DNA from: Siphonodentalium dalli
Taxonomy: Eukaryota; Mollusca; Scaphopoda; Gadilida; Siphonodentaliidae
Length of the DNA stretch: 64,000 bases
Assembly: GCA_032622095.1 (NCBI GenBank)
Contig: CP136065.1
Coordinates: forward strand, 208,980,151 to 209,044,150
Reading direction: 5' to 3'
A model generated the notes under the pieces. The model worked only from the letters and a program-made list of their open reading frames with translations, was not told the DNA's origin and searched no databases. Below are positions 20,501 through 56,366 of this stretch, one piece after another. Position 1 is the first letter of the stretch. Each line of letters begins with the position of its first letter. Position numbers and translations under genes: made by a program.

Positions 20501-23500
20501 TTAATGGGGTTGTCGATACGACACTTGTGCCATCGCGGAAGAGAAGAACTCGAGGCTGCGCCCCTTGTTCCGCGTTTGTACTCGAGCCGGAACGACAAAG
20601 CCACTAACACACTCACGTCGTTCTGTGTATTAATTTGGTATTTGAAATTCCAAGCCTTTAGACACTTCAGGCGTTAATGACCCAAACGTATGTGACATTT
20701 CTCGATATGTTCTGTATTATTTCGAAAATGGACATACATGTTTTATAACGCCGTGTTAATGATTAATTCCAGGCCTACAAACTTGCGAAGGGTGAAATGT
20801 GGCCGCTCATCACCTTGCTCTGTGTATTTAGTGCCGTTGTATCAGCGTTCCTTGACAACGTCACGACGATCCTCCTTCTAACCCCTGTCACCATAAGGTT
20901 CGTACCCAGCCCATATCCAATCTACAACTATATAATCTACAACTAAGTAAGTACATAGAAACGTTGCCAACTTATATAATGCTATATATTTACATACTAA
21001 GTGTGATTATCACTAAATCCAGCATTCCGATTGGACGGCGCCCACGTGACTAGTTGCAGTTATTTCTCGGTGAACGCGCAATAGGTCATAACTGCAGCCC
21101 CATAATTACACCGACGCGTCATCGGTTTCGGAAAGAAGAACGCGTAATGTTTTGGGCGCATTTAGACTCGCGCAGGATTGACTTAATAAATCATCATGTT
21201 TCAATATAAAGAGCCTCGTTGTTCCTGTTAACTTTGCCAAGGGAGCTATGGGATATTTTGGGCTGGTTTTGTCACGATACACTTTTCGATTTAAATACAT
21301 TTACAAAAGTGGCTTTTTTGCTAAATGTATATAAATATAAGGATTAAATGTCTTGTGGACTGTTTTTATGGAGATGTAACCGTGAGATAAGTGGTCATAA
21401 CTTGTATGTAAAACCCTTCGGATTTTACACAAGTTATGACCACTTACCTCACGGTTACATCTCCATAAAAACAGTCCACATGACAGTTAATCCTTATATG
21501 TATGCACAGACAGGCTAAATTTAAATGTTACTGATTCAACGTCAAAAGCTACGTGTAGCAGACGAAAGCTATATGGTTCGAAAGCGGCCAAGTTCATCGT
21601 TGCTTTTGCAGAAATGGAGCGGCATTTATAATGTTTATCAATATACATGCAGTAAAGGACAGGAAGGTATGCTATTCATTATACCCATGATCCTTTCGAT
21701 GTGGGGTCAAGATAAAACTTGAATACTGCCTGCCACCCCCACCATTTCAAGACCCTCAAGTGACGTATGGCATCCCCGCTGCATCCATACTAGTAAATTA
21801 ACTAAATTATGTAGGCCTACGTGGCATTACATGAATATAGCCAAACGAGAAACAACTTCATTTCAAACATCTCTGGTACATCTTACATATTGAGCTGTTT
21901 GATTGAATATTTTATTTGAATAACAACAATTACTAAAGGCATTGCTTTCGTTTAGTGATAAGAAACGCACATGTGCAGCATGGCCATATCGGTTATGATT
22001 TTTCAGACATTTTTTTACTTTCTGTTTTAGACTCTGCGAGGTACTTAATCTGGACCCGAAACATGTTCTGATAGCAGAGGTGATGTTCTCGAATATTGGT
22101 GGAACCGCCACGGCCGTCGGTGACCCACCCAACGTCATCATCGTGGCCAACAAGGAAATGTCTGAAAAGGTAATCAAAGCCAAGCGATATAAAATTGTAT
22201 AGCCCTCCTTATTATAATACACAACTTTGACCGAGTTTGTTTTTCCTACATGTTCTGGTCCATTTTTTAACCCTTTACCCAACAGAACGGCCCTGTGCCA
22301 ATGCATTCTCTTATATATGCGAGTCGACCATAGGTCGCCTCGCATATGTAAGAGAATGCATTGGCTTAACACATTAAAATTTTTTAAAATATATAAAATT
22401 GTTAAAGAATGTAAGAAAAATGGTAAAAAAAGTTTTTTTTTAGGCCAATGCATTCTCTTATATATGCGAGGCGACCTATGGTCGACTCGCATATATAAGA
22501 GAATGCATTGGCACAGGGAATAACTGTAACCATCACAATGTGGTCAATGAACCGGTTCCAATGATATCCATATTTGTATGGTTTTATTGAGACAGACCCA
22601 AGATAATTTAGGCTGTTGCAGCTTTATTTGGCCGTTTTTGGCCGGTTTATTGGGTAAAGGGTTAAAGTTATTTACAACCACGCAAGGGAGCCTATGGATG
22701 TGCGATTATGAGCTCGGTCTGACTATTTTGTAATGGAGTTACCCCCCTTTTCTTATACATGTACTTTTGTCCATGTATGCTGCTGCTGGTGAAAATGATG
22801 CTGAATTTGACACCGTCAAGTCACTATAATTATTCATACTCAGATTAACTACCAGGATGTTTGCCAACCCGAGCGTGTCGATGTATATTATGTATGTAAT
22901 TACATATCACATGTTTCTCTCTATCCATATCTTTGAAAACTATCCCCATTTAAATTTAATAATATTTAAAATTTATGTACATTGGATCAGAGAATAAAGC
23001 AAATTAATTTGAATACCCGCGGTAAATCTTATAATTATGGGAGAGGTCCGATATTGCCACTTAGTATCAGCATTTTGAAATTAAAGGGGGGGGGGCTGTA
23101 CACTAAATCCGGCCATTTATGGGACCATCTCCTTTTATTCTCAACAGAATATATGCAACACATCAATGAATTTGAGCCATGGATTTGTGCAAAATACAAT
23201 CGTGTGCTCTATGAATGATGCTACAAGGTGGTAATTATAACGATGCAAACAACAAGGTAATTATTATGAAAATGAGTATAACACTCGAGTCATATTTGAA
23301 CCTTGTTAAAAAATTCTCCGTCAGATTATCTTTCACAAAGCTTCGGATCAGCAACCATACTTTGGAAATTGAGAAAGGCAAACACAAACGATCTAAAGTA
23401 GCCACTGATGAGAGAATTTGCAAAAATTGTGGAATGGAGGTAGAAACCGAAGAACACTTCATTATGAGATGCCCCATTTATGAAAAATCTAAGAAAACGT

Positions 23501-26500
23501 TTATTTGCGGAAATAAGCGACAATATTCAGACCTTTAATAATATGGCTGACCAACAGAAATTCTTAAACAAATGGTGAACGCAAAACATGTAATATCATC
23601 TGCAGCATGGTCCAACTCTTTCTACATGAACGGTGTGAATCACCAAACATTGAACATTAATATATTTATGTTACTATACTTATAATAACATTTTATTTAT
23701 GTAACTCGTTTGACATCGGCCTCGAGTGGGCGTATTTGTCAATAAATTTATCTTATCTTATCTTATCTTAAACTCATTTTCATTATACTTACCATGTTGT
23801 TTGCATCCTTCACAGAGCGTATTTTGCACTAAGCCATGGCTCAAATTCATTCATCCGTTGCATATATTATGTTGAGTATAAAAGGAGATTGTCCCATTAG
23901 TGGCCGGATTTAGTAAATAGTACCCCTTTAAGCATGTACAGTTAGTTGACAGACAACTTGATTGTCTGGTCCCCTATTATTTAATGTGTTACCATCATTT
24001 ATGTCTTTCCAGGGGATAAACTTCGCTAACTTTACAGCCCACATGTCCGTTGGGATCGTATTTACATCCGTTGTTGCGTATGGATTTCTGAGGCTGCTAT
24101 ACCGACATAACAGCGGTCTAATGAACAAAGATCCACCTGAAATCACAGGTGAGATTCACTGACGCATTCATTGGTTTAAACATAGTTCATGTCTAATAAT
24201 ATACGGTAATTACATGGTGTATAAGGGATTGGAGGACAAGTTCTGAAAATAACTCATATGAACTTCCGTTCTCTACAACAAATATGCATATATGTTAAAA
24301 CATTTATTAACAAAGTAAATATAACAGGCTTTGTTATGACGGCTATGGCGTGTCATATATGTATACTAGTTTGAAATTGGTTGAATCGGATTGGTTAAAG
24401 GTGCATAATCCGATTCGATTGCCCCTATCACCCAGTTACAACAACAACACCAACGGAATTTCACCCAAAACCGATTTTTTAGATGGCCCCCTATCACCCA
24501 GTTACAACAACAACGACAACAACGACAACAACAACAACGGAATTTCACCAAATTAGTTTATTACCAATAAATACTCACAACAATGACAACCACGATATCA
24601 TATTTGCCGTAAAAGTCCAATAATAACGGGGTTTCTTTGCAGTTTGGAGGTGAGCGAGTGTGAAAATTCCCCAACAATTGTTGTTCACGAATGTAAACAC
24701 ATAATATTTCCACTGTAACCATATAACATGTATATTTGCATGGATAAAACTTGATTACCGATTCATAAATAAGTATAATGCATGTATCCCCACGTCAACT
24801 ATCACAACCTATTGTGTTATTGTTGATGGCGATGCTTTTTAACGACCTCTATTCCGATGTCCGACATTAATTGGTCGCCACTGATCGCACATGGGGCCGC
24901 GACCTTAGTGACCACTCGAAACGGCGTGCGCGCATGTATGTACTATTTCTGTATAAAGTCAGCTGATTTTTGCCGGGCCGCCAAATATTCATGGTGGTGA
25001 AAAATAACAGATTTAAAATATCGATATCTAATAACTCCGAGCTTCGATGGGTGGGTTCCTCGACTCGAATCAAATATTTTTACACCCGAAGCCAAAGAAA
25101 TAGTAACTTAGGGGCGTTTAATCGGATTGTGCATTTTTAAACAAACAAAGAATTGTGATTGGGTGTGTGTATATATATACAAAAGACCATTTGGATGGAT
25201 ATAACCATATAGAGATATAGGAGGGTCATTAAATATAAATTAGGTATGTTGTCCGGTTAGGAAGATTAATATGTAGGTAAGGGATCGATCGATTGGGGTA
25301 CAGTAGGAGGGGTGGTAATGGGCGGCGTGTAGTCTTATGACATGGACTCCAAAGTTTGAGTGAGTTCACATGAGCTTTGAACGGCGAATATACACAAATA
25401 CATCTGGTTATATAAAATGTTACCCTACTCCCTAACGCGAGACCATAGCCACTCCAAACAGCAACAGCATGCAGCAGCCACTTTAAACACAAATTTTGAA
25501 CCTATCTCTAAATACATTTATTAGCAGCCGAATGCCATATAGGAGAGGGGCTCTGATAAGTTCCGCAACTTGTGCTCCGATCCTCTGTGTCCACACAACT
25601 ATATGTGTCTATAATAATATGTGTAATGTATATATACGTTGTGGGTCACAATAAATATGTTCAACAAATGTGCGGCGTGTAGTATTATGACATGGACTCC
25701 AAGGTTTGAGTGAGTTCACATGAGCTTTGAACGGCGCATATACACAATACATCTGGTTATATTGTGCATATATGCATATGCACATGTGCCGATGTCTGTT
25801 GAATCAAACAATATTTACTTTGACCTTGTAAGCCAATGTATTCTCTTATTTGTGCGAGGCTTAACGCTGCACCAGCTTAGCTCCAGCAATGAGATGATTA
25901 AGCATTCAAACATGACTCGACAATTCAATCTATTCTTCAGAAATGAAGCACGAGATCGAAATGTGGAAACGGGCTGCGTCAAGGGTATCTGTTGCGTCCC
26001 GCGAGGAGAGCGTGATGAAGGCGCTGTTCGCACAAAAGGCCTTACAACTCGAGAATGCACTCACACGCCAGCTCTACAAAACACAGTGAGTAAAACAAAA
26101 TCATCGTCAGAAATGCCCTCAAGATCATATTATTGTATAGGCATATAATTATATAATATAAAATATATTGTTTCATGAATGCACCACCTCAGAGTTGCGT
26201 TAAAAGAACTACGGCAAAATATTATCACATCAGGTTTCTCATTCACCACACCAGAATGCATCTAATTGAGGACCAAAAATCTACTAATCGGATTATATAC
26301 ACACCGATACTTCACAATACGACCTTTAGTCTACTTTCCAACTGAGACATGCGTCATATCAGAAATGTCAGCTGTTATATTATGCATTGTGTTCCCGCAA
26401 TAAAATGTTCAAGAGTGGCCCAGCCATTGTTCACACCCAAATATCGAAAGCAATTAAAAATAAAAGTTACATACTGCAACAATGAGACATCCGCGAATAC

Positions 26501-29500
26501 ATACATCCTGCAATAAAGTATAACTGGTACGCAATATAGCTAGTACATTTTAAATCATATTTCCTAAAATAAGAATTGTACAGTATCAACTTCACATATA
26601 CCCATTGTCGTATTTGTTTCAGGAAGAATAACAAACACGATTTCGAGACAAACGTGCGGGAGTTAGAGAAAAAGGTGAGATACAAGGACTGTTCGTGTGC
26701 AAAACTTCTGCGCCTCGACATCTATAGTTCCGAATGACCACTCATTTGCTCACGAACATCGTCGGTTTCTGCTCGTAATTTTGAAATCAGACATGTACAC
26801 ACTTATGAGGAATCAGTATTGCAATTCGTTATGTATCTATTTCATCTTACATGACTTCCATATACATGCACTGATGTTTTTGGATTTCCATCTTTTAAGT
26901 AGTGGGTAATATACATGATTATAATGTACTGCAACATAACAAATCTTAATTAACATCGTGTTCTGCTTTAGTCTGTTTAAAAAAATGTTGAAAACTAAAT
27001 ATGGCATGGAACTAGACAAAAAAAAAAAATTTGTTACTGAAAAATAATTTTTGGCCTCTAAGACATCAAAACAATCAGTCTTTGAATAGCCGATGAAAAT
27101 CCTGTCGGTTGTACGTCTCTAGATGTGTCCATAATATTTAATTTCTACGACGACGCGGCATTCCCAACATGACGTAATAAACCGTTTCCAAATATGAAGT
27201 GCATTCCTGGTGTAGTATAAATGTTTGTGAGAATCGTAGTATTTAGAAATAGTTATAAATACACCTAGATGCGAAAGAATAATCAGCCATGAATATCGTT
27301 GACTGATAAACAAAAACTCGAAGATGATGTCTCCTAAATTGCGATGAGTAAAATGAATTATGGATATATCGCCTGTATTCAGTTTTCCAACAATAGTTGA
27401 GTTTGACAATGCGTGGGGAAAATTGTCAACACGTCCTTGACCTCTGATCTCGGACGTGATTTGCTATGCCATCAACCAGTGAAATCGCGTGCAGTCTGCG
27501 CCACTCTCCAATGAAATGGAGGGAATCCCTTCAACACAGAACCTAATTTTAATAGAGAGTTCTAGAGACGAAATTCCGATATAGGATTTTTGTCGGCTTT
27601 TCAAAGAGACTGCAAAACAACATGATATAAGGTAATAGGAAATTAAATAGCAAACAAAATAGCGTGTTTCTACAGGGGGGGGGGGGGGGGTAAAAAAAAT
27701 TCTGGCACGTATGCCGGGATGGGTGGGTGATCAAAGCCACCAACAAGCAATTTTTTCCGCAACTAAAAAAAATATTTCCTGCTTGGTTTTTTAGTGTTTT
27801 GGCAATGAGTTGGGCTTCAAAACCACTTTGAATGAGAGAAATAATGTAATTCTAACTGGTAAAACTGACTGCACGCAGTTATCGTGTTGTATTTTGTTGC
27901 AAATTTTGAAATCCAAGATGGCCGCTGGCAGCCATGTTTTTTTGGCCGAATGACCTCAAAATGACTCATTCCTATTTACATGTCCATGTTAACATCCATG
28001 ATAAATAGTATGCACAGAAATTCATATACAGCTGTTTACAGTGAATTTCCCCCGGCAAATCTCTGTTTTATTGTTAAAAGGGGGGGTGGGTGTCAAAAAA
28101 TGGTCGGAAAAAACTGCCGAAAACGGAAAAAAAATTGGCGGTTGGGGTGGGTGGGTAAAAAAAATGATCGAAAGGGAAAAAATGCCATACGTGCCTGAAA
28201 TTTTGTTCCGACCCCCCCCCCCCTGGTTTCTAGAGGAAATTCTTGTTCCAATCATGTTATATCATACACCAGAATCTAAAACAAAATTTTAAATATAGGT
28301 TTTACAAAAATTAGCCTGGGAACCTGAATGCATATTTTAGTATAGAACGTGTGTGCTTGCTACACATCACGTGACCAAGTGTTTCAACTGGGAGTCTTAA
28401 CTTTTCTATACAAAATATTTTCTCACGTTCAGTTTTACAAGTATACATTGGATCTATTATTCATTTGGTGGGATGTTAAGGTCATAAAATCAGACGACAG
28501 ATAAATAAAAGTGGAGAAAAATTCCTATATACCGGGGAAATATTTTAGATAATAAGTTCAACAAACGACATATTATCTGAATATTTCCTATGTAATAATT
28601 AATCATCAATGATGCTTTATTATAGAACGTCTTAATGTGGTACCTACTGTGGAGGTACGTGTAAGTGGAATTTTTGAGTTCCTACAAGTGGTTATCTTGA
28701 CTTATTTTCTCTTTTCAGTACTGCATCACCGATAAGGTCCTTCTATATAAGTGCGCAGGTGTTCTCATCGTGACGATCTTCACATTCTTCGCGTCGGCAT
28801 TTATCGATGGAATTCACATGGATCTCGGTACGTAATATTTGGTTTATGGGGGGCGGGGACAACATATCACAACGTTGTCAAAGGATTGATTCGGGATATA
28901 ATTCCACTGCACATAGAAACCACCGATCCCAACGTAGCCGCTGACATACTTGCTCAGATACACGAATCAGGTTATCGCCCCTCTTTGTTAGTTTAAACAA
29001 TATTTATTATTTTCAAATACCATCTATACATATAATCATGGATGAATGAAGAGGGGATTGGATAACAAGCATACCTTGCTTTTATAAGTCCTCTCCCCTC
29101 TGACTGTAAACGTCTGGATGGTAAAAAAAAAAAAAAAAAATAAGGAAAGAATTGGGTGGGAAAAATAGAAAGGATGCAGATCTGTGATCCAGGTGAAATA
29201 AACGTAATGGTCGGAAGAAATTAATAGCGGATGAAGGCCCCTGTTTGTTGACCACATATCCAAGCTCATCGGTTTCGCCATCGCTGTTGGTCTAATGCGC
29301 CATACACCTTACTAACTGAGCCACCAGTGTGGTACATTCACCTCAGTAATATCAATAATCTGCTGTTAATGGAATTATTAATTAGCTGCAGGTTATCGGC
29401 CGCAATAAATAGAACGCTGTCCGCGTCATAAGTAACAAAATGTCGGCCAATAAGTAGAAAACGCGGCCAATAAGTCAAGGTAAAGTAAATGACGTCATAC

Positions 29501-32500
29501 GTAATTAGCTAGATCGGCAAAGAATATTGGGTCGACGGAAGATAGATTACAGTTTCTTTCGGATGAATTACGGACTGTCCCTGTTTTGGGGAGTAAATAT
29601 ACGTGGATGAACTAAATGTATCCGTATCAATATCATTCCCAGTGGAAAAAGACAGTACTGTGAAATCGCTTCAAGTTATTCACTAAGTTCACAAGAATAA
29701 AAATTGCAGGAATAATTGTTAATTTAATACAGCGCACAATGGTGTATATCAATGTTAATATATTCAGCGTGTGAAATAACAATTGCCAATGTTGCTAATT
29801 AATAAAATACTTATTAATTGGTTGTTTCCACATTGACCGATTTATGAGGCCTCAGTCTGTCGTATTAGTCTTCGGCCTGCGGCCTCATGCCAATACGATA
29901 GACCTCGGCCGCATAACTCGGCCAATATGGAAACAACCAATTAATAACATATACTAATATCCAACTTCCGTGCACATGTTTAACAGGTTGGCATTAGCAA
30001 TGTTCAATCAAACGTACGTGTAACTTGTAACGTGTGTTACTATTGTATGTCTATGCACTTGACGGGAAAAGTCATGTGTTTTTACGGCGCCAAAGCTACA
30101 CGTTTTGAGATATCGGCCCAACTTGTAGCTGAACGTGTAAACAATAATCCGACGGCAGAGACAAGCTGTCCAAAGTGCGACCGTCGATATGCTTAATTGT
30201 TGTCAGTCAAAACATTATCTTACAGACACATTAGTTGCTCACTATATAGAAGATATTACATTCGCACAAAAGCGGCGAAAGAATGCCAGAAAACACTGCT
30301 GCGAATACACAAAGGCAATTTAGGTTCCAGGCGGCAGTCGAAAAAAGTATTTGCCATCAAGGCAACAACCCCTTTTGGAAAAACGAAAAAGTAAAGGTTG
30401 GGTGACCGTTGCTTAATAATTTAACAACATTCACGAAACTCACGCAGATTCGCCGATTGATCATATTGTATTGCTCCGTTTTGCTTCATGTTTGATACAA
30501 AACTTCTAAACTGTTCGACCGCGTACGTGTAGGCGTAATGGTCACGTGATTCACGTGACTTTCGTTGCCAATGGCAACATACGTTAAAAGTTACATGTAC
30601 GTGTGGCTGATCGACCTGTCAAAACAAAAAGAACGAAATCCTTTAAAGCTCACCTTCCATGAAATACAGTAATGCTCTAATTAATCGACTCCGTAACCAC
30701 AGCAGAATTATGGGTAACTTTTCAGGATTTAGTCGGAAATATGGCTTGTTGTCATTCATCGGAAAGCTCTCCCCGAGAGCTTTCCGGTGAATGGTAACAA
30801 GCCATATTTCCGACTAAATCCTGAAAAGTTACCCATAATTCTGCTGTGGTTACGGAGTCGATTAATTAGAGCATTACTGTAAATGGCAAAGAGTAGATAT
30901 TAATTTGTATACATATTTGTATATAAAGGTACACCAGGTTTGATACTCTGGGTCATCGTCTAAAAGGTTGGATGGTCATATAATATAGTCATATATAGAT
31001 TGCCTGGTAGCAACCGCCAACCGATCATAGCCTAGTAGCAACTGCCAATCGACCATAGAATGGTAAAAACCGCCAACAACTTGGTAGCAACCGTCAGCCA
31101 TGCATAGCCTGGTAGCAACAGCCAACCGGCCATAACCTTTTAGCAACCGTCAGCTCGACCATAGCATGATAGCAACAGCTAACCGACCATAGCATGGTAG
31201 TAGCAACCAACCGACCATAGCCTGGTAGCAACAGCCAACCGGCCATAACCTGGTAGCAACCGACAGCCATTCATAGCCTGGTAGCAACAACTAACCGGCC
31301 ACAGCATGGTAACAACCACCAACCTAGTAGCAACTGCCAACTTGTAATAACACGGTAACAACAGCCACCCGGCCATAGCTAATTATAGGGAAACTAGAAA
31401 AGGTTGGATGTAAAAGAAAACCAAATTTGTTAATTCACCTGAGCTCAATTTGGATTCAAACTACATGTACACAATTCATTCAATTAATAACAATTTATCG
31501 TCATGATTAAGTATCTTATGAGTTTTATGACAATAAGTATTATGTAATATTTGATCGCCATGCTTGTTTTCGAGACTTTTTCATCTTCCCATTCAGGCGG
31601 AATAGCTTTGGTTGGTGCTATCTGGCTTCTAGTGCTTGCTGACATCAGTGATATGGAAAACATCCTTCACAGAGTAGAGTGGGGTACCCTCATATTCTTT
31701 GCTGCTCTCTTTACTCTCATGGAGGTAAGAACAATGGAAATTCAACAAACATGCACACATCCATTACCTGTAATCGTTTTATATCCACATCTGTAAACTT
31801 AAAGTGGTGTGAAACACCCCGGTTGAGTGATCAAATAGAAATGGAGAATAATCTTGCTCAAAGTAGTTATTTTCTACGAATATTAATCGAAATTTCCAGC
31901 ACACATATCGTCATTTGTATGTATTAATGTATAAATGCAATGACTCTCGATGGCGAAATCATTTGTGTTAGTTTATCGCCGATAGTTGCGTCCCGAATCG
32001 AGAATTATATATTTACAATTATGCGTAGATCAGACGATGATATCTATGGAGTGGTATGGTTGATTTCTTCGAGATTTTCGGCGATGTTAGTAGAATGCTA
32101 CATTCCCACAGTTGGCATAGTGCCTGAGTACTAGCTTATCAGTTCCACGCACCCGAACAGGTCCATAATAGGTCTTTAATGTTAATGCAAATTAAATTTG
32201 TGTTTCAGGCGCTGCAAGAACTGGGGTTGATAAAGTTTATTGGGGACTCCATGAGCAGTATGGTCAAGGAGGTACCGCCAGATGACCGATTGCTGGCGTC
32301 ACTCGTCATCATTGTCTGGATCTCGGCCATAGCGTCCAGCTTCATAGACAATATTCCATACACTACAGCTATGGTACGTATTGCTGCTGTTAAATGTATA
32401 CATATATTGTATCGAGATAATGTTAATTGTATGGAGAGTATTGTATGGAGAGTATTGTATGGCGAGTATTGTATGGAGAGTATTGCATGGGGATTATTGT

Positions 32501-35500
32501 ATGGAGAGTATTGTATGGAGAGTATTGTATGGAGAGTATTGTACGGAGATGTTGGAAACAAGTTAGGCCGATTCGTCATCTTGAATTTAACACTTACCAT
32601 TTAACCCTTTACCCAACAAACCGGCCAAAACCGGCCAAATAAAGCTTCAACAGCCTAAAATATCTTGGGTCTGTCTCAATAAAACCATACAAATATGGAT
32701 ATCATTGGAACCGGCTCATTGACCACATTGTGATGGTTATAGTTATGCCCTGTGCCAATGCATTCTCTTATATATGCGAGTCGACCGTAGGTCGCCTCGC
32801 ATATATAAGAGAATGCATTGGCCTACCATTTTTTCTTACATTCTTTAACAATTTTATAATGTTTAATGTGTTAAGCCAATGCATTCTCTTATATATGCGA
32901 GGCGACCTATGGTCGACTCGCATATATAAGAGAATGCATTGGCACAGGGCCGTTCTGTTGGGTAAAGGGTTAAACATGGTTATGCAGTAATATGTCATTT
33001 ATACCTTTGATCTTCGGCCAAATTCTCGGGCCATGTGCGTCTGCGTGAGTTAATATTTTTGTTTTGTTGGTTGTGCGCTCAAACTCCTTTTAAATTTATG
33101 TGGCTCATTTCTCCAACAGTCATTTAGGTTTGATTTAAAATTAATTAAGGAGCCCGATAAAACATATTCAGTTTGTTCCAATTATTGGTGCATCTAGAAA
33201 CAAAATTGTTGCTGACTTTCCTTGTATTCTAGCGCTTTTTTTGGATCTTCTTATTATTTCCTCTTGTACGGGACTCCTATATATTTTTTAATGATGATAA
33301 TGACACCTCGTCTGATTTATGATCATCTTTAAAACAAAGAGAAAGTTTGTGAAAACAATATGATTATGAATAAACGTTGATGCGTATATCGTATCGACGT
33401 TTGTTTGTACTGACTGTATTACAAACATAAAGCCAAAGTCCGCTTATTTTCAAGTGGCATAAAATTTGCCAACATTTATAGAGTCTGGTCACTTTCACCA
33501 CTGGAAACCATCGTCAATTAAATTAAAAACGGAAAAAAACCCATAATTTCAGCATAGAAATCTGACAATGTCTTCCTTCTTTGTGACTCGACTGAACTTT
33601 GCTGCCATTTGTATTTCTATAACTGTGAATTGGGTGGGTTTCGAAACCCGGCCCATGCCGGCGAGCGCGCCTTGCATATAGTGTCCTAAGTTCGACATCG
33701 AATACAGCGGCCATTTGAGTTACTTTGTGGGGGGGGGGTCGCTTCGGTGCCCGTGTGTTATTGGTCGGACTTTGAGTCGTAAGGCGCGCTTGCTGTCATG
33801 GACACTTGCTTCTAAAAATAGGTGCTTGTGTGTTGTATATTCCAAGATATGTTCAAAGAGCAACGGTCGGTATGTGTGGGAAACGTATATATAACATGCT
33901 ACATATCTACTATATATAACCGAGTCGTCAACAATATTATTATCTGAAGAACGTGCTTATCTCGGTGGCAAAACGCAAAATGCAACATAGATGAATCACT
34001 ATGAAAGTCACACTGTAACATGACCAGTTAAAGTGACTGTACTGTTTGGCAAACTTGGAACTATACCACTTGGAAAATATGTCTTTAACCCGGGTAAAGT
34101 ATGTGGCGCTTCGATAGCTAAACGATTGACAGCGCACGCGTGTGATACAGGCTTGATATAATTTTTTGGCGTTCATTGCAGATTCCGATATTGATACAAT
34201 TGAACGAAGATCCTACACTGAATCTCCCTCTCCTGCCAATGACCTTTGCCTTGGCGTTCGGGGCTTGCCTAGGAGGTACGTATTCAACCTATTAACAACC
34301 AGTCCGGATGACATGTACATTGTAGATGTACCTTTTCAAGTTTTCAACAAACTTATCTCCGATGAAGGATGGATGGATGGACATTTCGTCGAGGTAGAAA
34401 TAGGACATACACACCACTCAGATTGAAGTTCCCAAATTGTGAATTTTGTGATGTACACCCATTGGGAACCTCGATTGTGCAATGTGTCGTCTGCCAATTT
34501 CAGGATATAGAGAAACTAAACTAAAAAAGAAGAAGTTTCTATAGAAATTTGATAATGAAGAAACTTTCCGGAGAAGATGATGCCTAAGCAGAATGAGGTC
34601 CCCAGAGGGTGAATTTAGTGATGCTAGCCCGCTATGCGGGATAGCTTCACTAAATTCACCCTCTTGGGACCTCATTCTGCAATTGGCAGGGACACTAAAC
34701 TCAGTCTTTAAACAGGAAATCTTTTGACATTACTACGTATACCAAAGCCTGGATTGTGAATATTGCTAATTTAAAATGTCCAAATATCTCCCTTATTTCG
34801 TCAATTATTATTGTTGCTTGCTTGGTTTTTGGGTGAGATATTCTTCCAATGCAGTTTGACTTTTGTTACGGATTAGAGATAATTACATTGTTCTTGTTTC
34901 CTTAAAGGGGTACTGTACGCCATTTTCAATAAATTCCCGGTAATAACAACGATCCAATATCGAAAATATATAGAACAATAAGTAATTTGAGTCGAAGATG
35001 TATTCTGTAAACGTTCAGATTAATGGGTTAAAATCAATGTTAATAATTTGATATAAATTTAATTTATGGCTCAAGCCATAAAATAATTTTAAAATTTCCG
35101 TGTACAAGACTTATCAAATTAATTGACGGATAGTGGATTGGTCATCCCGTGGCACACATGATCGTGTAAAAATATGTTGATACGGGGCGTAAACCCAAGC
35201 CACTCATTGACATGACTATACAATAACTTATAATACTAGTATATGGGACTAGTATGCATATAATATAACATTTATTTGATACATTTGCTTGAAAACTGTA
35301 CAAAAATTACTCGACAAGGACAATTTGTATTTTCGCATTCTGTCTAATCTGCCATCCGTAATATTACTTCGTACTCAACAGACTTTCAAATAATGGAAAT
35401 CTGGTTACCTTATTCTACGACTCAGAGACTATAGAAGCCAAACAACAACAACAACATTTGAGTACAGTACCCCTTTAAGATATTTTGTCCGATGCTATAC

Positions 35501-39007: not shown

Positions 39008-39850
39008 TTAACCCTTTCTGGAGCTTCCTGAAATTTTGTGAAAACCCTGTGCCAGTGCATTCACTTATATATGCGAGTCTCCCATAGGACGCCTCGCACA
39101 TCAGGCTATGGTCTTACAATCTCGTCCAAATACGGATACGATAGGCGAGAATCGCATGCGTTTTGATATGTCGATGCCGTCTGGAGAGTTTGGCGGGACC
39201 AGCATCCCGTCTCGATTTGCTCAGTCTACCCTTGATGCTATAAAGTGGTAGCCGCGGGCGCTTATATATAGAGTTGTTTTTATGTGCCATCAGGCCCCCG
39301 CGGCAGCGGTCGCTGGCGCGACCTGACTGCCTCGATATCAATTTGAAAAAGGGGTGACGTTGCAATAACAGTTTGAATTTTGTGTTTCCCAACAGGTCTT
39401 AGACAGTGACGGCCGCCTCCCCCAAGCCCACCCACCCTAAAAGTGATTTTTCCTATAGTGTTTTTGAAACGTGTCTCTTTGTGGTGTCATTCTTTTGGTA
39501 TGATTTTTTACTAAATAACGGGTATGTTAGAGTTACATTTCTTTGAATTTTACAATCGAAACATATTCGCATGCGATGCTGAGTCACGCGGGACACGGCA
39601 AACTAAATCGCGCGCAAATTGGCTTGCGATTTTTCAGCATCCCACCCCATTTGGCATGCGATAGCGTTTGTACTTGTGCGCACATATAAGAGAAATGCAT
39701 TGGCCTAACAATATTTACATTGACCTTGTAAGCCAGTGCATTCTCTTAAAAATGCGAAGCTCCCCATGTGAGACTCGCACATATAAGATAATGCACTGGC
39801 ACATGGTCTTGAATACCTCATCAGCACAGCTCCCGTCATGAAAGGGTTAA
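39008..39850. mobile_element. TTAA MITE interrupted by ~570 bp
   Basis: Left: TTAACCCTTTCTGGAGCTTC with half a palindrome module to about 39105. Right: from about 39685 the rest, ending GTCATGAAAGGGTTAA at 39850. The intervening sequence (39106-39680) is of unknown origin, with a 92-codon minus frame of no recognised family. Confidence 0.65.
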
Positions 39851-40907: not shown

Positions 40908-41069
40908 TTAACCCTTTCAGTGCCGAGTCCGATTTTTGTATCAACACATATTTCCTTGATCATTTTTCAAATTTATTGATTATAATAATATGATGCATTG
41001 ATGGAAAGAGCTCTAAGAGCTCTTTCCATCAATGTATCACATTATCGGACTTGGCACTGAAAGGGTTAA
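40908..41069. mobile_element. 162-bp TTAA MITE without palindrome module
   Basis: TTAACCCTTTCAGTGCCGAG to TTGGCACTGAAAGGGTTAA. The centre is a perfect hairpin (TGATGGAAAGAGCTC / GAGCTCTTTCCATCA). It shares termini with 56039-56295, which does carry the module. Confidence 0.88.
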
Positions 41070-43678: not shown

Positions 43679-44146
43679 ATTACCCTTCCATGACTGGAGC
43701 TTCCTGATTTTTTGCGGAAACCATTTGTTGCCTCGCATATACAAGAGAATTCATTGGCCTAACAAATTTTATATTATTTTTCATAATTGTAAAAAAATGT
43801 AAGAAAAAATGAAATAAAATATAAAAAATTGTTAAAGAATGTAAGAAAATATGATAAAAAGGTTATAAAGAATGTAAGAAAAGAAGAAAATAAAAAAAAT
43901 TTATATTGTCAAAGAACGATAGATAAAATGATAAAATTGTTAAGAATATAAGAACAAATGATAAACATTCTTATAGAATGTACGAACAAATTATGAAAAA
44001 ATAATAAGAATTGTTAAAGAATGTAAGCAAATAGTATAAAAAGTTATAAAAATTGTTAAAGAATGTAACACAAATAGATAACAAAAATGCATTGGCACAG
44101 GGTCATTAATTTTGCACCAGCGCAGATCCCGTCATGAAAGGGTTAA
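43679..44146. mobile_element. TTAA-type MITE with an expanded AT-rich spacer
   Basis: ATTACCCTTCCATGACTGGA to CCGTCATGAAAGGGTTAA. Between a half palindrome at 43730 and GCATTGGCACAGGG at 44090 lie repeated TTGTTAAAGAATGTAAGAAA units, an expansion of the spacer seen once at 22380-22430. Confidence 0.72.
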
Positions 44147-46385: not shown

Positions 46386-46648
46386 TTAATCCTTTCATGA
46401 CGGGAGCTCCGCTGGTACAACATTAAATACCATGTGCCAGTGCATTATCTTATATATGCGAGTCTCCCATAGGGAACCTCGCACATATAAGAAAATGCAC
46501 ATGCTTCCAAGATAAAAGTAAATATTGTTATGCCCAAGCATTCTCTTATATATGCCATGCGCCCTATGGGCGACTCGCATATATAAGAGAATGCATTGAC
46601 ACAGGGTTTTCGCAAAATTTCAGGAGGCTCCAGCCATGGAAGGGTTAA
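46386..46648. mobile_element. TTAA MITE with two palindrome modules, subfamily B
   Basis: TTAATCCTTTCATGACGGGA to CCATGGAAGGGTTAA. Modules at 46437-46500 (GAGTCTCCCATAGGGAACCTC) and 46530-46600 (GCGCCCTATGGGCGAC) differ in core sequence from the 22267 modules, but their arms still pair. Confidence 0.82.
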
Positions 46649-46704
46649 TATGAATCCGGAGCGACACTTTGCAAAAATAATGTGAATCCCTAAAACTGAA
46701 TTGT

Positions 46705-47090
46705 TAAAGTGATGTGAAACACTTCGGTTGGGTCAGCAAATAGAAATGGAGAATAATCTTGCTCAAAGTAGTTATTTTTTACGAATATTAATCCAAATTG
46801 ACAACACACACCTCCATTCTGATATATTAATTAAATGCAATGATGCTGGATGGCGAAACCGTTTGCGTTAGTTTATCACCGATTGTTGCGTCCCGAATTG
46901 AGATGTAAATATTTACATTTGAGCGTTGTTCATGCGCTGTTTTATATGGAGTAGTATGGTCGATTTCTTTGAAATGGTCGGTGATGTTAGTAGAATGCTA
47001 TATTCCCCAGGTTGGCATAGAGCCCGAGAACTAACTTATAAGTTTATCACACTCGAACAAGTCCATAATATGTCTTTAATGGGGTCAGAT
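46705..47090 (+). mobile_element. ~360-bp dispersed element, copy 4
   Basis: AAAGTGATGTGAAACACTTC through ATGGAGAATAATCTTGCTCA to AACAAGTCCATAATATGTCT. Confidence 0.82.
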
Positions 47091-47099
47091 ACAGAAAGA

Positions 47100-47870: not shown

Positions 47871-48346
47871 GGTGAATGCAGGGACGTGGCGACAGGTGGG
47901 GTTGGGGTGTGTCTCACCCCAACTTTGGTCAAAATTTTCAACATTTTGAAATTTCATACCTGACACATTAGTTGGAAATTTCACATCAACAATAGGTTAA
48001 AAATGTTGTTGTAGTTTGATTTTCAAATAATTAATTGTTGTTTTTGGACCAATATTTACATATTTTCCTACTTTTGGTCAAAATTTTTAACTGAAATGGC
48101 CATCAGCTGGAAATTTTCCAACCGTGGGGGTCAAAATTTGAGAAAACAATATTGTCCTACATTTGGTCAACATTGCCATTGGAATTGTCATCGTTGGAAA
48201 TTTTCAAACCTAAGTGGGGGTGTCAAGTTTGAAATTTCCAACTCCAGGAAGGCTTGAGGCTAGTCTAGATGGTAGGATTTTGCGATTTTCCATGGTCCGC
48301 CCGGTGTGTCATGGTCTCTATCCCGTGGCCAATAAAAAAACTGATA

Positions 48347-49104
48347 AGTAATGGTTAGAGCACAAGAATTGTTCTTTACCAGAATCAATCGAGTCGGAGA
48401 CGAGATTTATTCTGGCAGAGAACAAGTCGCGTGCTCTGACCGACTTAGAGCAGAATTGATCACACATAATGCAATAAACTGGAAATGTGCCGCGCGCTGG
48501 CCGCGATTGGACACAATAGCCGGTTAGTCACGCCCAAAAACGTGATTAACATGAACTGAATAGATATGTCCGAAACAACACGGACTGTTCCCACTTTGAA
48601 GCGCCCGTGCGATTTGTTTGTTATGAGTTGCGGGTGCCTAACAATTGGATAATCATTGAATCATCGCCAGCCTTGGGAATTGGTGTACGTTACCAAAAAT
48701 CATGGAACGATTGCAACAATGGGATTGTGCTCTAATTAGTTTTAATGCTGGCGAGGGAATAGTTCAGTGATTATCCCATTGTTAGGCACCCGCTACTCAT
48801 AACAGACAAATCGCAAGGGCGCTTCAAAGTGGGACCAGTGCGTGTTGTTTCGGATATATCTATTCGCATTAATCGGCAATCAGTTGATGTTAATCACGTT
48901 GTTGGGCGTGGCTAACCGGCTACTGTGTCCAATCGCGGCCAGCGCACAGATTGGGCGTCGTGGTCAAAGCAGTTGATTGCATTATATGGGATCAATTGTG
49001 CTCTAAGTCGGTCAGAGCACGCGAATAGTTCCTTACCAGAATAATTCTCGTCTTCAACTCGATTGATTCTGGTAAAGAACACTTATTGTGCTCTAACGAT
49101 TACT
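48347..49104. mobile_element. 758-bp foldback element, arms ~345 bp
   Basis: AGTAATGGTTAGAGCACAAG at the left and TTGTGCTCTAACGATTACT at the right. The arms stay complementary to near the centre (CTGGCCGCGATTGGACACA, CACTTTGAAGCGCCC, GGGTGCCTAACAAT), with scattered differences and small gaps. It is inserted in the hAT-like element, since sequence on both sides continues that element. Noncoding. Confidence 0.85.
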
Positions 49105-49289
49105 AAGAAAACAATATTTTACTAAATTTAGTCAAAATTGCAGACTGAAATGTTTATCAGTTGGAGAATTTCCAACCTAAGAGAGAGTATGAAATTTCCA
49201 ACTCTAGAAAAGCTTGAGGCCAGTTTAGATGCTAGAATTTTGCGATTTTCTTGTTCAGTTTTCAAAATGTTCTCACACCAGTCTGAACA

Positions 49290-51240
49290 ACCATGGTCGG
49301 CCCGTTGTGTCCTGGTCTCCTGCCCGTAACCATGATCGGCCCGTTGTGTCTTGGTCTCCTGCCCGTAACCATGATCGGCCCGTTGTGTCCTGATATCATG
49401 CGGTAACCATGACCGGCCCGTTGTGTCCTGTCCGTAACCATGATCGGTCCGTTGTGTCCTGGTCTCCTGCCCGTAACCATGATCGGTCCGTTGTGTCCTG
49501 GTCTCTTGTCCGTAACCATGATCGGCCCGTTGTGTCCTGGTCTCCTGCCCGTAGCCATGATCGGCCCGTTGTGTCCTGGTCTCCTGCCCGTAACCATGAT
49601 CGACCCGTTGTGTCCTGGTCTCCTGCCCGTAACCATGATCGGCCCGTTGTGTCCTGGTCTCCTGCCCGTAACCATGATCGGCCCGTTGTGTCCTGGTCTC
49701 TTGCCAGTAACCATGATCGGCCCGTTGTGTCCTGGTCTCCTGCCCGTAGCCATGATCGGCCCGTTGTGTTCTGGTCTCTTGTCCGTAACCATGATCGGCC
49801 CGTTGTGTCCTGGTCTCCTGCCCGTAGCCACGATCGGCCCGTTGTGTCCTGGTCTCTTGCCCGTAACCATGATCGACCCGTTGTGTCCTGGTCTCCTGCC
49901 CGTAACCATGATCGGCCCCGTGTGTCCTGGTCTCCTGCCCGTAACCATGATCGGCCTGCTGTGTCCTGGTATCCTGCCCGTAACCGTGATCGGCCCGTTG
50001 TGTCCTGGTCTCCTGCCCGTAACCATGATCGGCCCATTGTGTCCTGGTCTCCTGCCCGTAACCATGATCGGACCGTTGTGTCCTGGAACCATGATCGGCC
50101 CGTTGTGTCCTGGTCTCCTGCCCGTAACAATGAGCGGCCCGTTGTGTCCTGGAACCATGATCGGCCCGTTGTGTCCTGGTCTCCTGCCCGTAACCATGAT
50201 CGGCCCGTTGTGTCCTGGTCTCCTACCCGTAACCATGATCGGCCCGTTGTGTTCTGGTCTCCTGCCCGTAACAATGAGCGGCCCGTTGTGTCCTGGAACC
50301 ATGATCGGCCCGTTGTGTCCTGGTCTCCTGCCCGTAACAATGAGCGGCCCGTTGTGTCATGGAACCATGATTGGCCCGTTGTGTCCTGTTCTCCTGCCCG
50401 TAACCATGATCGGCCCGTTGTGTCCTGGTCTCCTGCCCGTAGCCATGATCGGCCCGTTGTGTTCTGGTCTCTTGCCCGTAACCATGATCGGCCCGTTGTG
50501 TCCTGGTCTCCTGCCCGTAGCCATGATCGGCCCGTTGTATCCTGGTCTTTTGTCCGTAACCATGGTCGATCCGTTGTGTCCTGGTCTCCTGTCCGTAACC
50601 ATGATCGGCCCGTTGTGTCCTGGTCTCCTGTCCGTAACCATGATCGGCCCGGTGTGTCCTGGTCTCCTGCCCGTAACCATGATCGGCCCGCTGTGTCCTG
50701 GTCTCCTGCCCGTAACCATGATCGGCCCGTTGTGTCCTGGTCTCCTGCCCGTAACCATGATCGGCCCATTGTGTCCTGGTCTCCTGCCCGTAACCATGAT
50801 CGGACCGTTGTGTCCTGGAACCATGATCGGCCCGTTGTGTCCTGGTCTCCTGCCCGTAACAATGAGCGGCCCGTTGTGTCCTGGAACCATGATCGGCCCG
50901 TTGTGTCCTGGTCTCCTGCCCGTAACCATGATCGGCCCGTTGTGCCCTGGTCTCTTGCCCGTAACCATGATCGGCCCGTTGTGTCCTGGTCTCCTGCCCG
51001 TAACCATGATCGGCCCGTTGTGTCCTGGTCTCCTGCCCGTAACCATGATCGGCCCGTTGTGTCCTGGTCTCCTGCCCGTAATCATGATCGGCCCGCTGTG
51101 TCCTGGTCTCTTGCCCGTAATCATGGTCGGCCCGTTGTGTACTGGTCTCCTGTCCGTAACCATGGTCGGCCCGTTGTGTCCTGGTCTCCTGCCCGTAACA
51201 TTGATCGGCCCGTTGTGTCCTGGTCTCCTGCCCGTAGCCT
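49290..51240. repeat. 39-bp minisatellite, about 50 units
   Basis: The unit is CCATGATCGGCCCGTTGTGT plus CCTGGTCTCCTGCCCGTAA. Six units are 27 bp (missing TCTCCTGCCCGT). A block of about 700 bp is itself duplicated: landmarks at 49745 and 49921 recur at 50438 and 50653, offsets 693 and 732. Because 39 and 27 are multiples of 3, long frames stay open on both strands (up to 646 codons). They have no start context, no diversity and no domain. The single ancestral motif is visible in the hAT copy at about 44684-44720. Confidence 0.92.
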
Positions 51241-52283
51241 CGTGATTTTGTCTGCAGTTATACCACTAGATGTTAGGATTTATGCAATTTTCAGGTTCAT
51301 ATATCTGAATGTTCTCATACCAGTGTATATAGAACCATGGTTTATGTGAATGTATAGGCTATTAGACCTGATCACTGAGGTGCAAGGGGGTACGAATGGA
51401 ATTATGCAAAACTTGTATTTGGTCTGAACCAAGGGGGATGCAGTTAGAATTCTCCAAGGTGGACACCCCCAACGGAGACCCTCTAGCCGTGTCCCTGTAC
51501 GCTTGTCTCACTCGGTACCGTCACTACGCAGCTCTAAATAATCGATGATATTGCCAACGGCAAATGCGTTTCTTGGTGATATATTCCACTGAGATACGTA
51601 CATCTTTCATTGAAACGTATGTGATGTCTAGTCTAATATGGTATAAACGTACGTGACATAAAACTCTTTAATTTACCACACGTGCGCTTCTCAAATAATA
51701 ATATAACGAACATTCTGAACTGCTATTGACGAAGATGTGATTATAGAGTTGCGTCTCTTCTCTTGCTTTCATTCGTAGCAGTTCTTAGGGGGCAGACGCA
51801 CGTTTTGCATAAATCCGGCCCAAGAATTTCTCTGGCTCTATCAGGCGAAAAATCGTGAATTTCATATACCATCTTCTTCACAAAATCTAAGAACAGTAAA
51901 TCTTCTTCAGTATTAAATTAATTTGAAGCTTGTTTCACAAATCGTTGATTCGCAAGGGGGGGGGGGGTAGTAAAAATATTTCGGGAATGTATTTAGGGGT
52001 GGTGGGTGGCCCGAGGGGCAAAAAAAAAACGCGTTTTTTACACCCTCATGCATATTTTTTACTAAAGACCTTTTGTGCCCTTATATGACATTGGAAACAA
52101 TTTAAAACATATTATAAGAAGTTATAACTGCAAAAACACCATATTTATGTTACTGGGACCTCATATGGGCCTTAGTAGAGATGACATTGAGCTATATGGC
52201 ATGTTGCATATGCGGCGGTGGGGTGAACAAATTCCTTCCCGACACCCTTCGGAAAGTAGATTCGAGAAATGAAAACTGAAATA

Positions 52284-54165
52284 AATAAACTTGTCTTGAT
52301 GTAACTAAAGCCAAGATCATTGTGTGCATGGAAAAAGAGCTAGCAACTGTCTTAAACATTAATGTGACTATCAATGGCTAGATTATAACTGCCATCACAC
52401 TGTTCATCAGTGCATCAAGCCAATCAGTGAAATATGTGCATGGCTATCAACTCATATGATCTAAAATATCCAACCCTGGCATAGTGACTGTTTGTCATTT
52501 ATTATAACAGAGGTTGCTCCAGTAGACTAGTGTTAAGGCATAATGCTAGATAATGGGCTGGTTGACAGACTAATCGGGAAATGGTTAGAAATTACGGAAT
52601 TGTGTGTATCCTGTACAATGACCTAAGTTTGCATATATAAGTAAACTTGTCCCGATGTAACTAATACCTAGATTATTGTGTGCATGTAAAAAGAGCTAGC
52701 AACTGTCTCAAACATTAATGCGACTACCAATGGGTAGAACATATCTGTCATCAGTGCATCAAGCCAATCAGTGAATTATTTGCATGTCTTTCAACTCAGA
52801 AGATCTCTCGCAAGACCGAACGTATCCATGTCTGGTATAGTGCTGTGACTGCTTGTCATATATATATATATATACTAGCAGGTGGACCCGACTTCGTCCG
52901 GGCTGTTTCGGCGAATTGCATGATTTGACCTTGAATAGTCCATTTTGACGATTTGGCCCGGACAAAAGTACCCGACAAAAGTACCTATCGAAATCCATCC
53001 GGTTTTACCCGATTTGACCTCGAATTGATCATTTTGAAGGTCAAGGTCAGGTCGGGGTCACGATTTGACCCGTCCAAAACACTCCCTGGAAAAAAATACC
53101 TCTAAGTATAGAATTTCGTCAAAATCCGTCTGGCAGTTTTCCAACACCAACACCAACACCCCAAAAATGGTGGAAATCGGCCCAGCGGATACCGGGAAAT
53201 CGGCACAGCGGATACCGAGATACCCTATGTATCAAATTTCGTCCGTAAAAATCCGCCAGTTTTACCCGATTTGATTTCCACTCAAGTATATAAACGCGCC
53301 TCAAATACACACGCTCATTAATTATCAGGCTTCAACGTAAAGATAAATTAGCATTGTGTGTATTTAATAAATTTTAACTAATTATAACTAATTATTTTCT
53401 CGCCGTCAAAGTTCAACAATGTCGATGTTGTTGGCATTGATGGCTTGGGGGCCACCGGTAGATTCGTACACGCAAGCCATTTCAGCTAAATGGATTCTTG
53501 GATGAGATTCCAGACCATAAAGATAATTTAGCGAACTTTTACCCGCGGGGTAACTGTACACGACAATCTATCGACAATAGACCTAAGAATATGAGCTGTA
53601 ACAAAATTTATATATCAGAAATTGTAAATGATATATTTTGGGATAGATACACGATTGTTAAAGGCCTGCAAATTGACAATATATATTGTAAATGTTATAA
53701 TTTTGGGGTAAATACACGATCCGTAATTGCCTGCAAATTGACAATATCTCTTACGTTCCAGGACGACGTATGAATATAGAGTTATCCTCCCTGCATCGGG
53801 TGACAATCACGCGGGATCCGGATATATGAGTTTTATTAAATTGAGAACGGAATTCAAACTTAAAAAAAATATATATTGAAATAATATATATATATATCAA
53901 AATGTTTCAATGACCAAACGTGCTTGAAGCGCACAAAGGGGCTGCCGCTAAATGAAGGCTCTGTCTAAGATCAAAATGTTTGCGAAGTCCCACAAAGGGG
54001 GCCACTAGTTTCAGCTAGTTTAGTATAATAGAAGTAAGTTGCTCCAGTAGACTAACATAAGTGGTATGGAAAATGTTAGATAATGGGCTGGTTGACAGAC
54101 TAATTAGGAAATAGTTATAAATTGTGAAATGTTGTGTATTCTGCACAATGACCTAGGTTTACAGA
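52284..54165 (+). repeat. ~355-bp tandem duplication, second unit split at 52855-54035
   Basis: AAAAAGAGCTAGCAACTGTC is at 52334 and about 52687. GATAATGGGCTGGTTGACAG is at 52550 and 54089. The second unit is interrupted by the AT-flanked insert described separately. Confidence 0.75.
52855..54035 (+). mobile_element. Unclassified insert, ATATAT..ACTAGCAGGTGGACCCGACTT
   Basis: Begins at a TA repeat and CTAGCAGGTGGACCCGACTT, with GATTTGACC and CCGACAAAAGTACC motifs repeated. It has direct repeats at 53100-53220 (AATCGGC.CAGCGGATACCG) and at 53655-53760 (TGCAAATTGACAATAT). Ends near CTAGTTTCAGCTAGTTTAGT. No coding frame. Confidence 0.5.
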
Positions 54166-54449
54166 TGATCAGCAATTTATAAAACTTTTTTTTCAATTAA
54201 AACAGCTTCTGAAACAGGTTAAACTGTTATTTGAACTAATTGAGATCATTCCCAGTCATATGAGTGATATCAGTAGAGTTTTATGTGATTTTAGACCAAT
54301 TTTAGTGAAATCTGGGGGGTGGGTGTAAAAAAATTGGGGTGGTGGGTCCCCGAAATTGCCAGATGCAAAAAAACGGCATACCTTCAAATCTTTTACTACT
54401 CCCCCTGGATTCGCGAACATTTTTGTTTGAGCTATCAGTTTCAGATCAC

Positions 54450-55760
54450 CGATCAGTTATAAGGGGTATTCACGTACCGGCTAAAATTCTCTGAAAGAGG
54501 GGCCAGGTTTCTAAAAATAATGTGTAAAAGCAAATTGTATATAATAGAGAATTCGGTACCAGAACTATGCTACAAAACACTTTAGTGCAATAGTAGAACA
54601 CAAGGGTGATGGAGACAAGCCTACCTGTCTGGAATGTATTATGCCCCCCCACCCCCACTGGATACACAGCCAAGTATTCCGTGCCAAATTCTTGCAATTC
54701 GATGTCCTCTGGTGGTTAATGATCCCTTTCATAGTGAGAATTCTTTCCGTTTGAATGTATTACGATCTTACTGTTCTTATACCAGATACATATATCGACA
54801 AAATACAAAAAAAAACAAAAAAAAACACAACAATACCCCCTTAACCTTTTCTTTACTAAATACTCATTGATGGGTAGTTCCCAAGGAAATGTTCAGGTAA
54901 TAAATTGAACAAATTTTGAACTTATTATCTGAACATTCAATCCAATGAATATGCATCCATTGAACTTTTACTATGTATTCGTCACCCTGTTTTATACTTA
55001 CATTTCCTGCCCATACCTGAATATAATAGACCATGCCAATGTATACTTTCAAAACAGATCGGAGAATATATTTAATAAGGAAAGAGTAAATTTCAAATGT
55101 GTGGTTATTGTAATATGTCTGACCTGATGAGGCCCTATAGGAAATCTACTTTTCTTGCATGATATTGTTGATGACCATATCATGTTTTGTGAACGATTCG
55201 TATTATCTGTCGCTAATGAAATAATGAAAGCACGGTGTCCCTATTGACTGTTTAGAATATCCCAGACGTCTGATCACCACGAACGATATACTCTGGGCGT
55301 TTGACACGGGCAGGCGTAATGTAGGGTGGTCAATTTTCCTTTCAATGTTGGACACGACAAACACTCGCGTCATTTCGAGTGTACTGAAGGGAATTCGTGT
55401 GTGATATGTACGCTGTCAGGAGGTCACGCGCATGCCTAACAGAGTCAGACTTATGTCCAAAGGCAGACATCAAATACAATATTTCTTATTGTGAAGGAAT
55501 AATCAGTGATGACCCGAGGCAATGTGCAAAAAGTGGAAACGTGGAAAGGTGAAACGTCTGCAAGTTGTATAAGGCGAGTGTAAGCAGAGTGAATATTGTT
55601 ACGTACACTGAACAAAAAATGTAGAAAATATACTTTAACCACCTATACTAAGGCATTATTGATGAGTATAGTCATCCAAAGGGATATAGCGTGCTTTATT
55701 AATGTCTTGAGCAAGGACGAGAAACAACAATTATTGCGTTTCCACACATATATGGATTGG
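54450..55760. other. Intergenic, nothing firm
   Basis: A hairpin-type repeat at 54880-54960 (AAATGTTCAGGTAATAAATT / AACTTATTATCTGAACATT). Otherwise unassigned. Confidence 0.4.
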
Positions 55761-55768
55761 ATTCAAAT

Positions 55769-55961
55769 ATAACCCTTTCGTAACGGGAGCCACGATGGTG
55801 CAGCACTACATTTCCTGTGTGGGTGCAATCTCTAATATATGCGAGTCTCACATAGGGAATCTCGCATATATAAGATAATGCACTGGCTTACGATGTCAAG
55901 GTAAATATTGTTAGGCCAATGCATTCTCTTATATATGCGAGGCTGCAATTTTATTGCAATG
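55769..55961. mobile_element. Partial palindromic MITE
   Basis: ATAACCCTTTCGTAACGGGA with a full module at about 55815-55880 and a half module at 55918. No right terminus before the next element begins. Confidence 0.6.
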
Positions 55962-56366
55962 TTAATCCTTTCATGAATGGAGCTGCGCTTGTGCAGCATT
56001 AAAAATCACGTGCCAGTGCATTCTCTTAAGAGATTATCTTAACCCTTTGAGTGCCAGGCCGATTTTTGTATCAACCCATATACCCTGTGCCAATGCATTC
56101 TCTTATATATGCGAGTCGACCATAGGTCGCCTCGCATATATAAGAGAATGCATTGGTCTAACATTTTTTTTTATTATTTTTTTTTTTTTTATTATAAATT
56201 TTTTACAATTTTAATATATTTTATTATATTCTTTAACAGACTTATTGTGTAGGTTTAGGGCCGATTAGATCGGCCCCTGGCACTCAAAGGGTTAAAAGAG
56301 AATGGATTGGCACGGGTGTTTTTTTTGTGTGCAAAATATCAGGAAGCTCCAGTCATGGAAGGATAA
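55962..56366. mobile_element. Outer TTAA MITE hosting an inner MITE
   Basis: TTAATCCTTTCATGAATGGA to CCAGTCATGGAAGGATAA (last TTAA mutated to ATAA). Its own body is split at 56039-56295: AGAGATTATC before and AAGAGAATGGATTGGCA after. Confidence 0.75.
56039..56295. mobile_element. Inner TTAA MITE with a palindrome module
   Basis: TTAACCCTTTGAGTGCCAGG to GGCACTCAAAGGGTTAA. Relative to the module-less relative at 40908, the palindrome (about 56085-56162) appears directly after TATCAACCCATAT. Confidence 0.87.

Follow-up and report, generated by a model that had tools for sequence, protein, structure and literature searches.

How does the same hairpin come to lie between transposon ends that show no relationship to one another? 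This question is raised by a stretch of 64,000 nucleotides from the scaphopod mollusc Siphonodentalium dalli (GenBank assembly GCA_032622095.1, contig CP136065.1, positions 208,980,151 to 209,044,150 of the forward strand), referred to below as the window and numbered from its first base. The window contains a 67-bp ungapped quasi-palindrome, here called the module, in 11 full and at least three partial copies, and its carriers are all piggyBac-type TTAA miniature inverted-repeat transposable elements (MITEs) with three terminal types, A, B and C. We think it probable that these MITEs have in common an interior cassette that was passed between families with mutually unrelated ends, and that the hairpin arms were kept matched in the source elements. 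Exchange of interiors is the explanation that needs the fewest assumptions, and we infer its direction, age and mechanism from copies within this one window.

The module and the elements that carry it

The module consists of outer arms of 26 bp, a mismatch between columns 27 and 41, an inner stem of 5 bp and a loop of three bases. The 11 full copies align without gaps, with a mean column identity of 90% and 28 of 67 columns invariant; interrupted or partial copies (A2_M1, A4, A5_M2, A6 and the remnants) were excluded from this alignment. The original prediction had reported a block of about 70 bp; we confirm it at 22298, 22445, 32755, 32876, 46437, 46533 and 56090, with a half copy at 43720, and its exact size is 67 bp. 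The predicted list of carriers was incomplete, and we add elements at 14232–14493, 39008–39850, 55769 and 55962 and remnants at 1–145 and 25780–25890. The elements and their parts are as follows.

1–145, forward strand: pieces of two modules (10.4 and 16.3 bits) in a decayed remnant of A type that lies at the edge of the window
14232–14493, forward strand: A1, A-type TTAA MITE of 262 bp with two inverted modules
14281–14347, forward strand: module A1_M1 (alpha side)
14376–14442, reverse strand: module A1_M2 (beta)
22267–22665, reverse strand: B1, B-type TTAA MITE of 399 bp with TTAACCCTTTACCCAA termini and two inverted modules
22298–22364, forward strand: module B1_M1
22365–22444, no strand: AT-rich spacer of B1, containing TTGTTAAAGAATGTAAGAAAA
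22445–22511, reverse strand: module B1_M2, identical to C1_M
25780–25890, forward strand: decayed remnant of A type that retains half a module at 25833–25861 (15.2 bits)
32601–32973, forward strand: B2, B-type TTAA MITE of 373 bp, reversed relative to B1, with two inverted modules
32755–32821, forward strand: module B2_M1
32876–32942, reverse strand: module B2_M2, identical to C1_M
39008–39850, forward strand: A2, A-type TTAA MITE of 843 bp including a 584-bp insertion that splits its first module
39052–39101, forward strand: left part of A2_M1, the remainder lying at 39686–39703
39733–39799, reverse strand: module A2_M2 (beta)
40908–41069, forward strand: C0, C-type TTAA MITE of 162 bp without module, with a palindrome of its own (23-pair stem)
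43679–44146, forward strand: A4, A-type MITE with left end ATTA and right end TTAA
46386–46648, reverse strand: A3, A-type TTAA MITE of 263 bp with two inverted modules
46437–46503, forward strand: module A3_M1 (beta)
46533–46599, reverse strand: module A3_M2 (alpha)
55769–56364, reverse strand: A-type nest with decayed ends, comprising A5 and another A-type head, at 55962, that holds C1
56039–56295, forward strand: C1, C-type TTAA MITE of 257 bp with a single module, nested at a TTAA within the A-type element starting at 55962
56090–56156, forward strand: module C1_M

TTAA stands at both ends of seven of the nine elements examined (B1, B2, C0, C1, A1, A2 and A3), the exceptions being A4, with its left ATTA, and the A5/A6 nest, with its decayed ends. 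Left ends start CCCT in eight of nine (TCCT in A3), right ends finish AGGG in eight of nine (all except the decayed nest), and lengths run from 162 to 468 bp, or to 843 bp where the insertion is present. The termini are TTAACCCTTTACCCAA in the B type and TTAACCCTTTSAGTGCC in the C type, and A-type elements have one end near TTAAYCCTTTCATGACGGGAGC and the other near CATGACTGGAGC. No transposase gave a Pfam match above cut-off among the nine open reading frames (ORFs) scanned, a scan that did not extend to relics across the whole window.

A profile built from the 11 copies and searched across the window found 20 places at E<1, 14 of them at E<1e-5, and the best score in 20 dinucleotide-shuffled windows was 10.8 bits. 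Twelve of the 14 strong places score 47.6–79.8 bits, and those at 43720 and 55916 score 22.8 and 26.5 bits. All 14 lie inside TTAA-type elements; for 11 of them the element has TTAA on either side, and three fall in A4 or the A5 nest, where ends are partly decayed. Two weaker matches, at 76–101 (16.3 bits) and 25833–25861 (15.2 bits), also exceed the shuffled best. Four do no better than it: 8–44 (10.4 bits), 39679–39703 (10.8 bits) and 56013–56029 (8.5 bits), judged by position to be parts of A-type elements, and 15186–15219 (5.8 bits), taken as chance.

In the B elements and in A1, A2 and A3, the modules form an inverted pair with a spacer between them, and the order of the cassette is C[AC]TGTG, 67-bp hairpin, spacer, inverted hairpin, CACA[GT]G. 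The outward motif flanks all 11 full copies, as CC[AC]TGTG in 10 and as TCCTGTG in A5_M1. The common block is thus more extensive than originally described, reaching outwards to C[AC]TGTG and, in A4 and the B elements, inwards into the spacer. The proposed carriers at 22267 and 32601 belong to one family: B1 and B2 are identical at 361 of 372 aligned bases, lie in opposite orientation and have two inverted copies each. That at 43679 does carry the module, reduced to half of one copy (43720–43757) and a stub of a second, with a long AT-rich spacer of B type. In the nest, A5 has a module at 55820–55886 and a partial one at 55916–55943. The 584-bp insertion in A2_M1 (39102–39685) has the direct repeat CGCACAT at both flanks and so may be a different transposon that duplicated about 7 bp of its target.

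Shared interiors and unrelated arms

Local alignment with shuffled controls was applied to 18 arms (153 comparisons) after removal of the first ten bases; C[AC]TGTG was trimmed only from arms that ended exactly with it, and A4R retained it. At p<0.02, similarity was found in 39 of 57 within-family comparisons (30/45 in A, 4/6 in B, 5/6 in C) and in 0 of 96 comparisons between the A, B and C families. At the same threshold, left and right arms of one element resemble each other in A1, B2, C0 and C1, and not in A2, A3, A4 and B1.

The interiors follow a different pattern. B1_M2, B2_M2 and C1_M are mutually identical over 67/67 bp, and agreement with that sequence is 49–60 of 67 positions in the six full A modules. 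Moreover, the spacer 21-mer TTGTTAAAGAATGTAAGAAAA occurs exactly in A4, B1 and B2 only. In matching orientation, the A4 spacer is similar to that of B1 (score 75, p=0.002) and B2 (score 57, p=0.002), this being the reverse orientation, tested after the first one tried had given p=0.047 and 0.136. The A4 spacer (43786–44070) is a degenerate array of a GTTAAAGAATGTAAG unit that is present singly in each of B1 and B2. A B-type spacer inside the A-type A4 means that the shared thing is an interior cassette, more than the palindrome alone. One interior is found with three kinds of arms, as the original prediction had it. The converse is seen at 40908, which had been proposed as a relative with the same termini and no module: the left arms of C0 and C1 are similar (score 49, p=0.002), their interiors differ, and the C0 palindrome has no detectable relation to the module (p=0.086). 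Hence C arms go with two interiors.

C1 provides a direct example of nesting, since it sits at a TTAA of an A-type element within the remains of that element's hairpin. By eye, the hairpin of this second A-type head (56013–56310) has shrunk to about 45 bp excluding C1, and its modules and spacer seem to have collapsed into a single stem.

It could be argued that all carriers descend from a single module-bearing ancestor whose termini diverged gradually, with no exchange. All ends do start TTAA[CT]CCTT or a decayed form of it, and the distance from the end to C[AC]TGTG is 37–44 bp in six complete A arms and 44 bp on the left of C1; in the B type the distances are 24 bp and 147 bp. Yet B and C arms have no detectable similarity past the first 10 bases although their modules are identical, and C0 combines C arms with another interior. 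This explanation, already disfavoured, is quite improbable.

The palindrome, or the unit of module, spacer and module, might instead be an independent mobile element that inserts into TTAA MITEs, and the original prediction had raised a hitch-hiking palindrome of this kind. In all 11 full copies the similarity begins sharply at C[AC]TGTG, and in B the unit is symmetrical, as would fit such an element; inspection by eye, however, found neither a target duplication nor a TTAA immediately next to the module boundary, and all 14 strong copies lie within TTAA-type elements. Because, in addition, the shared region is larger than the palindrome, self-mobility is not supported and we hold it highly improbable. 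An independent palindromic transposon was accordingly rejected, with no target duplications and no free copies in the window.

Paired differences in the hairpin

Differences between module subtypes fall on both sides of the stem at three pairs. Pair 4:64 (A-T or G-C) and pair 30:38 (A-T or C-G) are paired in 11 of 11 copies, and 29:39 (G-C or T-A) in 10 of 11. Of the core variants first reported, GACC..GGTC was recovered in five of five B and C copies and the other, as TCMC..GGGA, in four A copies (beta); in addition, A3_M2 has GCCC..GGGC and A1_M1 has TCCC..GGGC, which is unpaired.

Against 500 shuffles of the nine distinct rows, cells changed on both sides number 12 (5.6 ± 1.8 in shuffles; reached in 0/500) and the covariation score is 0.146 (0.085 in shuffles; 0/500), with slid structures at 0.068 or less. 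The signal is carried by few events and is inflated by related rows. When arms were re-paired among copies, own-arm matching gave P=0.00085 with 11 rows and P=0.021 with seven. Between the B/C and beta consensus sequences, three of four differing pairs are compensated, whereas only one of 37 private pair changes is (Fisher p=0.0015, with counts that are not independent). Paired subtype changes beside unpaired private ones fit arm correction or selection in source elements followed by neutral decay. We read this as pairing that is regained in copies that transpose onward and lost once they are inserted. The earlier suggestion of structural selection or of conversion between the arms is compatible with the data, in which three pairs differ on both sides between subtypes and private changes rarely come in pairs.

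Under exchange of interiors, the cassette would move between families by recombination or template-switched copying rather than by transposition of the palindrome itself, possibly through gap repair after excision or through resolution of nested insertions. Template switching can restore or fix stem pairing (PMC8794818), and such correction may keep the hairpin arms matched during copying of source elements, perhaps with added selection in favour of hairpins that aid mobilisation; after insertion, copies would decay without compensation. Copying that switches between modules could also yield mixtures such as A2_M1, whose columns 4 and 29 on the left are of beta type and whose columns 64 and 39 on the right are of alpha type, as could independent mutation.

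Selection alone could have maintained the pairing if the module is a cis-acting hairpin, a putative site that is architectural or is bound by a piggyBac-type transposase or a host factor, and that increases mobility so that its carriers do well regardless of their ends; exchange would still occur, and function would keep the arms paired. The invariant columns and the mostly paired subtype differences agree with this. In addition, piggyBac and piggyBat transposases bind near-end palindromes through cysteine-rich domains (PMC11707139), and the authors describing coral CMITEs suggest that the interior these share takes part in transposition (PMC2872659). On the other hand, the palindromes described in the cited part of the former source are short, 19 bp in piggyBac and 14 bp for the innermost one of piggyBat, compared with 67 bp here (PMC11707139), and private changes appear free. 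Moreover, C0 has TTAA ends without a module and C1 carries a single copy, thus the module pair is not required. A selected hairpin is possible, if rather unlikely.

Several results weigh against exchange of interiors combined with arm correction. The short A spacers are alike among themselves but resemble those of B at p<0.05 in only 1 of 10 comparisons, and the C1 spacer is weakly similar to A4 (p=0.012) and B1 (p=0.053). No donor or intermediate element was seen in the window, and sharing may amount to one or two events, since the data come from a single window with three types of arm, two B elements and just one C element that bears the module. In the hairpin, doubly changed pairs (4, against 3.3 in shuffles; 209/500) and further pair types (9, against 9.9; 456/500) are not in excess, and own-arm matching within A alone is not significant (P=0.10, six rows). 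The alpha consensus comes from two copies that disagree at column 29, and consensus ties were assigned the B/C state. The mismatch 27:41 is kept (T.C in 10 of 11, T.T in one), which argues against full arm homogenisation, a process that would remove it. Finally, A2_M1 is not a clean chimera, because its left column 11 has the alpha state.

Related systems and neighbouring sequence

TTAA MITEs with different terminal inverted repeats (TIRs) and a shared interior have been published as CMITEs of Acropora corals, and in the cited part of that report the origin of the interior is left unexplained (PMC2872659). Like the present elements, CMITEs are TTAA-flanked with piggyBac-like termini, form several families with different TIRs, have an interior better conserved between families than the TIRs, and include an element-in-element insertion, CMITE-IN (PMC2872659). 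They differ in being about 100 bp long with a 75-bp interior (PMC2872659), whereas here a long hairpin forms the interior, mostly as an inverted pair, and its subtypes covary. The published 60-bp consensus of the CMITE interior is not similar to the module (p=0.57 against shuffles) and folds weakly, at −11.0 versus −50.9 kcal/mol with RNA parameters. The present case is of the CMITE kind and goes further in that its long hairpins form an inverted pair, one relative has a substitute palindrome, and the subtypes show covariation. Beyond that paper, no MITEs with a shared interior and different ends were found among the matches listed, which covered titles and abstract openings, with most subscription journals outside the scope.

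The elements share with piggyBac or TTAA MITEs in general the TTAA target, CCCTTT-like termini, short length and apparently non-coding nature. Different MITE families typically have unlike interiors (PMC2872659), in contrast to the one interior with unrelated arms here. Paired stem changes and patchy arm matching are likewise features of template-switch correction of quasi-palindromes, which the cited part of the source demonstrates for RNA genes (PMC8794818) and which we infer for these MITEs. Since MITE families are sorted mainly by termini, interior exchange would give ends and interiors separate histories that such sorting hides, and the contrast of paired subtype changes with unpaired private ones offers a simple way to test whether hairpins of MITEs are maintained for as long as the elements are mobile. 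A bolder version, which we find distinctly doubtful, is that the cassette, as a hairpin that corrects itself, is a portable engine for TTAA MITEs: unrelated terminal lineages would capture it by template switching at the hairpin, paired changes would arise only while it is mobile, almost any TTAA terminus could become a successful MITE, and the process would recur in corals and other animals.

Exact matching, which misses diverged copies, gave no matches for the module pattern or the spacer-module junction in collections of viral and genome contigs (non-animal), nor for the A terminus in the viral-contig collection. Searches for Rfam families at gathering scores and for transfer RNAs also returned none.

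As for neighbouring features, the sole Pfam match above cut-off among the nine ORFs is CitMHS (E=3.1e-10), in an ORF or exon at 32128–32601, which is probably part of an OCA2/P-protein-like host gene. Repeats are dense, and some fragments look like tails of non-LTR (non-long-terminal-repeat) reverse transcriptases, features that would suit an invertebrate animal; two of these fragments, when scanned, had no reverse-transcriptase match in Pfam. Satellite-like repeats (ATAAATTGTCACACCTACTAT..), with 67-bp and 101-bp units that occur in either orientation, adjoin A1 at 11631–14145. A minisatellite at 49289–51236 has 52 copies of a 39-bp unit with several frames open, and a near-perfect palindrome at 30665–30881 has arms of 107 nt, 97% complementary, with 3 nt between them.

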